This document shows, piece after piece, positions 41,871 through 43,103 of a DNA stretch of 64,000 nt. This DNA comes from Pyramidobacter porci (GTDB taxonomy: Bacteria > Synergistota > Synergistia > Synergistales > Dethiosulfovibrionaceae): contig NZ_VUNH01000010.1 of the NCBI RefSeq assembly GCF_009695745.1, positions 62,001 to 126,000 on the forward strand. Reading direction: 5' to 3'. A model generated the notes under the pieces. The model searched no databases. It was given only the letters and a program-made list of their open reading frames with translations, and had not been told where the DNA came from. Positions within the stretch are counted from its first letter, which is position 1. Every line of letters begins with the position of its first letter. Both the position numbers and the translations under genes were made by a program.

Positions 41871-42776
41871 TCAAAGCGGATTGACGTGGACCATCACGTG
41901 CTTGACCTGCGGAAAGTTCGTTTCGACCGCGTCGTGGACCCTTTCGGCGACGGCGTGGGCGGCGGCCAGCGAACAGCGGCCGTCCACGCCGATCTCAATG
42001 TCGACATAGACGCGGCTGCCGAACTCGCGCGTGTTCATCAGGTCGATGCGGCGCACGCCCGCCTGAGCGGCCACGCACTCGCGCAGCGCCCGTTCGGTGG
42101 CCTCGTCGCAGGCGTGGTCGACCATCTTGTCGGTGGCGTCCTTGAAGATGTCGATCGCCGCTTTGACGATGAACAGACAAATGACGAGACTGGCCGCCGG
42201 TTCCAGCACCGGAGATCCCATGCGCGCGCCGCCGATGCCGATCAGCGCGCCCACCGACGACAGCGCGTCGGAACGGTGATGCCACGCTTCGGCCTTCAGC
42301 GCCGTGGAGTCGATGCGCCGCGCCCGCAGCCACGTGTACCAGAACATCGATTCCTTGACGGCGATCGACAGCGCCGCCGCGAAGAGCGCGATGCCGCCCG
42401 GCTGCGGCATGTTCCGGTACGCGCCGCTCCAGATCTTCTCCAGGGCGCCCCAGCCGATCAACAGTCCGACCGCCGCCAGGATGCCGCCGAGGATCAGCCC
42501 CGCCACGCATTCGAGCCGCTCGTGCCCGTAAGGATGCGAGCGATCCGACGGCCGCGCCGAGGCCTTGACTCCCGCGACGACGATGACGCTGCCGAGGATG
42601 TCGGAGGTGGAATGAACGGCGTCACTGATCATGGCGCCGGAATGCCCGATCGCGCCGGATGCGAACTTGAACGCCGCCAGCAGCAGATTGCCCGCGCCGC
42701 AGACGACGGAAACGCGCGTGGCGATTTTTTCGAACTGATTTTTTTCCGGCGCGCCGACGCGTTTTTCTCGATCCAT
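41871..42776 (-). CDS. Cation diffusion facilitator metal exporter
   Basis: A 301-residue CDF antiporter that exports divalent metals (Zn, Fe, Mn, Co or Ni). Six transmembrane helices are followed by a cytoplasmic domain ending VMVHVNPL. Metal sites are in helix 2 (SDAVHSTSD) and helix 5 (HHRSDAL). The HHRSD form is common in Zn and mixed-specificity members, so the metal is uncertain. ATG 42776 follows AGGAGG. The mRNA leader carries a terminator hairpin (see 42838-42876). Confidence 0.92.
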   Translation of the reverse strand: MDREKRVGAPEKNQFEKIATRVSVVCGAGNLLLAAFKFASGAIGHSGAMISDAVHSTSDILGSVIVVAGVKASARPSDRSHPYGHERLECVAGLILGGILAAVGLLIGWGALEKIWSGAYRNMPQPGGIALFAAALSIAVKESMFWYTWLRARRIDSTALKAEAWHHRSDALSSVGALIGIGGARMGSPVLEPAASLVICLFIVKAAIDIFKDATDKMVDHACDEATERALRECVAAQAGVRRIDLMNTREFGSRVYVDIEIGVDGRCSLAAAHAVAERVHDAVETNFPQVKHVMVHVNPL

Positions 42777-42832
42777 GACAATTTCCTCCTGAACGGATGG
42801 TTTCATGAAATCCGTCCGCTTCGCGAAGCACG

Positions 42833-42876
42833 AAAAAATCCGCGGGACGCGCTCGAATCGCTTCCGTCCCGCGGAT
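42833..42876 (-). terminator. Intrinsic terminator in the CDF gene leader (candidate attenuator)
   Basis: Read leftward, ATCCGCGGGACG (42876-42865), a 15-base loop, CGTCCCGCGGAT (42849-42838) and a run of six T. It lies between a promoter (42977-43005) and the CDF start (42776), with no gene upstream on this strand that it could end. A control function is therefore likely. Confidence 0.75.
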
Positions 42877-42976
42877 CGTCGTCCGCTACCGCGCCGCGGC
42901 GGCCCGGCCCGATCCCCGAGGGGACGGCCTGTTCAGTTTGTGCAGTGTTGAAGGTTGTGCCAAAGCCTTGAATGAA

Positions 42977-43005
42977 TCTTAACAATCGGCCGCGGAATTA
43001 GTCAA
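42977..43005 (-). promoter_or_regulatory. Promoter of the CDF gene
   Basis: On the minus strand TTGACT, a 17-bp spacer and TTAAGA. It predicts an RNA starting near 42970 and a leader of about 190 bases. It is back to back with the promoter at 43023-43051. Confidence 0.65.
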
Positions 43006-43022
43006 GCCATATCGCCGCGCGC

Positions 43023-43051
43023 TTGCCGGAACGAGAACGCGCTGTTATAAT
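43023..43051 (+). promoter_or_regulatory. Promoter of the GNAT gene pair
   Basis: TTGCCG (43023-43028), a 17-bp spacer and TATAAT (43046-43051), 53 bp ahead of the first GNAT start. Confidence 0.75.
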
Positions 43052-43103
43052 GAACGGCAAAATTCCGCCGCGGCGCGGACATCGCCAGAGGAGGAGGACC
43101 CTT

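Follow-up and report, generated by a model that had tools for sequence, protein, structure and literature searches.

The Mn2+ riboswitch (yybP-ykoY) is a metal riboswitch class found in front of metal transporters. For the NiCo (czcD) class, passages of a review (PMC7689651) describe a mechanism in which metal binding at junction guanines relieves a terminator, and place the metal-site guanines of the solved Erysipelotrichaceae RNA at G45–G47, G87 and G88. The metal of this class is disputed: the first description named Ni/Co, while Fe(II) and others were put forward later, according to the relevant portions of four sources (PMC7689651, PMC9481103, PMC9971707, PMC11477304).

We analyzed a 64,000-nucleotide stretch of Pyramidobacter porci DNA, hereafter the window, in which a structured leader precedes the gene for a CDF (cation diffusion facilitator) transporter. 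The features of the locus are as follows.

42976–43005, minus strand: sigma-70-type promoter, TTGACT-18-TAAGAT, with the same hexamers and spacing in leaders L007, L008 and L014
42862–42946, minus strand: NiCo (czcD) riboswitch aptamer, four-way junction P1–P4, identified by RF02683 match and covariation in 48 sequences
42903–42905, minus strand: conserved G run after P2, aptamer positions 42–44 (48 sequences)
42866–42870, minus strand: J4/1 and start of the P1 3' strand, GGGAC, positions 77–81 (48 sequences)
42833–42877, minus strand: intrinsic terminator, 12–13-bp stem and U6, its 5' arm shared with J4/1 and the 3' strands of P4 and P1
42785–42790, minus strand: Shine-Dalgarno sequence AGGAGG, 8 bases before the ATG at 42776
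41871–42776, minus strand: CDF transporter, 301 aa, PF01545 and PF16916, HD-HD site H55/D59 and H166/D170

As judged by covariance search, the leader is a member, new but no more than that, of an already described metal-sensing RNA class, the NiCo (czcD) riboswitch. The RF02683 model covers 42862–42946 of the minus strand end to end (model positions 1–96 of 96), scoring 53 bits where the gathering score is 37 (E 2.9e-9, cmscan on the whole window), and this is the single match reported in the 2.5-Mb genome. Fourteen named control genomes yielded no RF02683 match. No other Rfam class exceeded its gathering threshold in the window, and within 42760–43060, searched at E up to 5, the only models to appear besides NiCo were isrK and PhotoRC-I, at E 3–4 and far below gathering. 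The yybP-ykoY class, for which the initial annotation had suggested a search alongside NiCo, resembles this leader in being a metal riboswitch class ahead of metal transporters, but differs in that it produced no match, either in the window at gathering or in 42760–43060 at E up to 5.

The initial annotation had read the region as a leader under terminator control in front of a CDF gene, which is borne out, and as an attenuator or riboswitch of an unrecognised metal-responsive class, which the full-length RF02683 match rules out. Nothing speaks for such a class except the leader itself, and against it stand a curated class matched along its entire length and the presence of the conserved junction guanines; we assign this reading a negligible probability. 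The two alternative pairings that had been noted in the GC-rich leader both fall inside the NiCo aptamer, CCCCTCGGGG being the tip of P2 and CCGCCGCGG lying within the P3 hairpin. The window form shares with RF02683 the four-way junction, the conserved G runs, a terminator that overlaps P4 and P1, and a CDF gene downstream. It differs in its length of 85 bases, its GC content (73%), its origin in Synergistota and an A-A combination at the outermost Rfam P1 pair, which are ordinary variations. In the literature searched, mostly papers outside subscription, we found no description of NiCo riboswitches in Synergistota.

An alignment of leaders from related genes, another check proposed with the initial annotation, revealed a conserved fold with covariation, the opposite of the missing leader conservation that was to refute the earlier reading. 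The alignment comprises 48 aptamers, 21 from Synergistota and 27 clostridial; L027 (with the same aptamer score as L007), L071 (which has a long insertion) and the repeat copies L008, L023 and L024 were left out, the last three because they most likely reflect assembly redundancy. The four-helix fold is kept, with 87.5% of cells pairing, compared with 27–44% in a control in which the 3' partners were slid by 1–3 columns. Changes on both sides occur in 20 of 25 pairs, and the observed pairing value was reached by none of 500 shuffles on any of five measures, these shuffles being ones that do not keep relatedness. A few pairs depart from this pattern: P2 pair 25–79 fails to pair in 42 of the 48 aptamers, the P4 pair adjoining the loop in 29 of the 45 with letters there, and the outermost P1 pair in 11 of 47. 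The window aptamer, besides its A-A combination at the end of P1, has C-A at the loop-adjoining P4 pair.

Positions G43, G44, A60, G78, G79, A80 and C81 are among those that are invariant in the aligned aptamers, and G42 and G77 are kept in at least 90% of them. The G runs of the metal core are present in the window and conserved across the 48 sequences, and we infer their mapping position by position: the run at 42903–42905 would correspond to the metal-site guanines G45–G47 of the solved Erysipelotrichaceae RNA, and GGGAC at 42866–42870 would hold the counterparts of G87 and G88.

The terminator arms span 42877–42865 and 42849–42837, with the U6 run at 42838–42833. Its fold reaches −27.4 kcal/mol (z −4.0), a value that none of 200 shuffles equalled, and its stem of 12–13 bp agrees with the 12-bp stem and U6 originally reported. 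It was missed by a simple terminator scan because its loop is longer than the scan's 8-base limit. The possibility that it ends transcription of an upstream gene was ruled out, since the neighboring gene, which encodes a GNAT acetyltransferase, is divergent and lies on the plus strand, in keeping with the earlier statement that no gene upstream on the leader strand needs ending. The 5' arm (42877–42865) is made up of aptamer sequence: the 3' strand of P4, the J4/1 guanines and the first part of the 3' strand of P1. Owing to this shared segment the aptamer and the terminator are mutually exclusive, as in the ON switches published for the NiCo class.

Energy folding of the single sequence does not recover the four-way junction, the support for which comes from covariation. 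For the aptamer alone, the best fold has −39.3 kcal/mol and the four-way-junction fold −29.5, placing the other fold ahead by 9.8, and the stability of the aptamer is ordinary (z −0.54; 51 of 200 shuffles equally good). The rival fold has J4/1 and P1 paired with the P2 5' strand; this pairing would also hide the terminator arm, and basal leakage is therefore possible. Over the longer sequence that reaches to the U run, the terminator fold beats the enforced aptamer by 22 kcal/mol in an energy model that is metal-free. Termination is thus expected by default, and preventing it requires something that keeps the aptamer together.

These energies bear on another reading, in which a plain terminator permits constitutive partial read-through and the aptamer is a degenerate relic. 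The failure of energy folding to predict the junction for the isolated aptamer would suit a relic; its junction guanines, however, are intact, and the overlap between aptamer and terminator is retained in G114, G115, G116 and G117. We regard a relic as highly improbable.

Instead, the leader is almost certainly a NiCo riboswitch that works as a transcriptional ON switch, in which metal would relieve the terminator and allow production of the exporter. The analysis itself establishes class membership in sequence and structure, the mutual exclusion of the two folds, conservation with covariation and the transporter gene that follows. What is drawn from the NiCo class is metal binding, expected to be cooperative, together with the direction of control, export and the identity of the metal. 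By this analogy, in the absence of metal the aptamer's 3' portion (P4 3' strand, J4/1 and P1) would pair with the adjacent downstream segment as a terminator, ending transcription some 56 bases short of the CDF start codon. In excess, Ni2+, Co2+ or, as argued in later work on the class, Fe2+ would bind the four-way junction, and the metal-bound junction would hold P4, J4/1 and P1 in the aptamer, blocking the terminator so that the exporter could be made. With such a switch, the cell would most likely produce its metal-export pump only under transition-metal excess. A CDF gene of a Synergistota genome thereby gains a likely regulator and a likely role in metal stress.

To place the leader in its phylum, we searched 185 Synergistota genomes and found an RF02683 match at E ≤ 0.001 in 22 of them (13 of 62 genera). 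There are 24 such matches, of which 22 reach the curated cut-off, leaving 20 of the 185 genomes above it. The match is present in four of five congeners; in the fifth, G118, which is 83% complete, the CDF fragment begins at a contig end. The gene downstream encodes a CDF protein in 13 of the 24 leaders (called as tblastn relatives of the window protein) and a P-type ATPase in 10 (four called by NCBIfam, six by Pfam), and the remaining leader, L004, abuts a contig end. G116 contributes three copies to the 24, of which two are identical to each other.

The overlap between aptamer and terminator recurs across the phylum. In 20 of 22 distinct Synergistota leaders, some of which are near-identical, the aptamer 3' end can form 10 or more pairs with a segment preceding a U run, compared with 247 of 2200 dinucleotide shuffles. 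For the window leader taken singly the test is weak: when its downstream 60 bases were shuffled, 10 pairs were still reached in 24 of 100 cases. L002 and L003 lack four consecutive T within 140 bases; a complementary segment can be seen in both by eye.

The P-type ATPase leaders are L010, L012, L013 and L015–L021. For the four ATPases tested with NCBIfam, P2/P3-type models (PMR1-type Ca, plasma-membrane H) outscore the heavy-metal P1B models, with P2/P3-type scores that stay below the model cut-offs on partial proteins. The three G116 copies of leader and CDF gene (L008, L023 and L024) all lie within 47 kb of one contig's ends; L008 and L023 are identical over 3,085 bases, L024 is without two aptamer bases, and the set most likely represents redundancy of the assembly.

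Relatives of the window CDF, which itself matches PF01545 at E 7.7e-46 and thus places the leader ahead of a metal transporter gene, are encoded by at least 574 candidate stretches in named genomes, the best 80 of which were kept. Within these 80, the nearest named relative is the CDF of Pyramidobacter sp. C12-8 (97% identity), and the other 79 are 55–65% identical and nearly all labelled Clostridia. RF02683 matches ahead of 29 of these best 80 loci, the Pyramidobacter one included; four of the 80 have fewer than 300 upstream bases. A model built from the 48 aptamers added 10 further leaders, for a total of 39 of the best 80, 27 of these 39 having belonged to the building set.

The eight genomes of the sister genera gave a different picture. 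None has an RF02683 match, and their CDF proteins, found in seven of the eight, are 25–40% identical to that of the window. With model R1, no such leader was found in the roughly 1,450–1,500 upstream bases of each of seven sister-genus CDF genes (L112–L117 and L119), nor over the same length ahead of the second CDF-family gene of the window's own genome (L026). L111 and L118 gave no match to model R1 either, nor L111 to a pattern search, over only 20 and 1 upstream bases, respectively. L111 and L009 share a 219-base overlap (98% identity) at contig ends, so that L111 most likely represents the G117 gene whose leader is seen in L009.

In a tree of 96 CDF proteins, the Pyramidobacter proteins fall within a set of 19 rows together with clostridial ones (100/95), and the sister-genus proteins lie far from them. 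This distribution suggests that the transporter and the switch may have been acquired together by horizontal transfer, which is only suggestive given a midpoint root, some long-branched rows and a choice of rows made mostly as hits to the window protein.

The identity of the metal is in dispute for the class as a whole. The NiCo fold may here mainly sense another metal, such as Fe2+ or Zn2+, which would make the "Ni/Co" name misleading; we consider this a serious contender, if not the favored one. Parts of one review report in-vitro responses of the class to Fe(II) and Zn(II) and name Fe(II) and Mn(II) as the only metals compatible with the availability estimated for cells (PMC7689651), and another review, in the portion concerned, lists the class as an Fe2+ riboswitch (PMC11477304). 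On the window CDF, the NCBIfam models for MamM, MamB and FieF outscore the Co/Ni model DmeF, with each of them below its own cut-off. The metal site of the transporter, however, does not settle the matter: aligned to the FieF site, its first residue is H where FieF has D, and the resulting HD-HD arrangement is common to all of the best 80 of at least 574 related loci, with or without a detected leader. A single leader does not in itself change any view of riboswitches, and the value of the collected Synergistota and clostridial leaders is as a diverse natural set for the metal question of the class.

Nine clostridial CDF leaders (L028, L031, L032, L040, L043, L063, L074, L079 and L080) read CGCAGGAC where others read CGCGGGAC, with A as the first base of J4/1. 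The guanine replaced in these leaders would, by inference, be a metal-site base. Six of the nine (L028, L031, L040, L063, L074 and L080) score below the Rfam gathering threshold, and the CDF proteins of all nine sit in the clade adjoining Pyramidobacter. They are possibly an altered-ligand variant of the NiCo class. A broader proposal, that the metal choice of the NiCo scaffold has diversified among Pyramidobacter and its nearest clostridial CDF relatives and that Fe2+ or another metal, and not Ni2+ or Co2+, may be the ligand of the GC-rich Pyramidobacter form, is in our view unlikely.

The promoter anticipated by the initial annotation at 42977–43005 is present, with TTGACT at 43005–43000, an 18-base spacer and TAAGAT at 42981–42976; it scores 9 of 12 against the consensus, and a TG precedes the −10 element. 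Identical hexamers with equal spacing are found in the leaders L014, L007 and L008 of the congeners G114, G115 and G116. A leader of about 190 bases, as first estimated, is expected from this predicted promoter, and the distance from the end of the U run to the ATG at 42776 is 56 bases, close to the 57 of the initial annotation.

Between the terminator and the Shine-Dalgarno sequence lies a second hairpin (42791–42817, minus strand), the loop of which holds an in-frame upstream ATG at 42806. A similar stretch is found in L007, L008 and L014, and the hairpin with its ATG could affect translation. On the plus strand, ahead of the GNAT gene, a promoter-like element at 43023–43051 (TTGCCG-17-TATAAT, 10 of 12) stands back to back with the exporter promoter.
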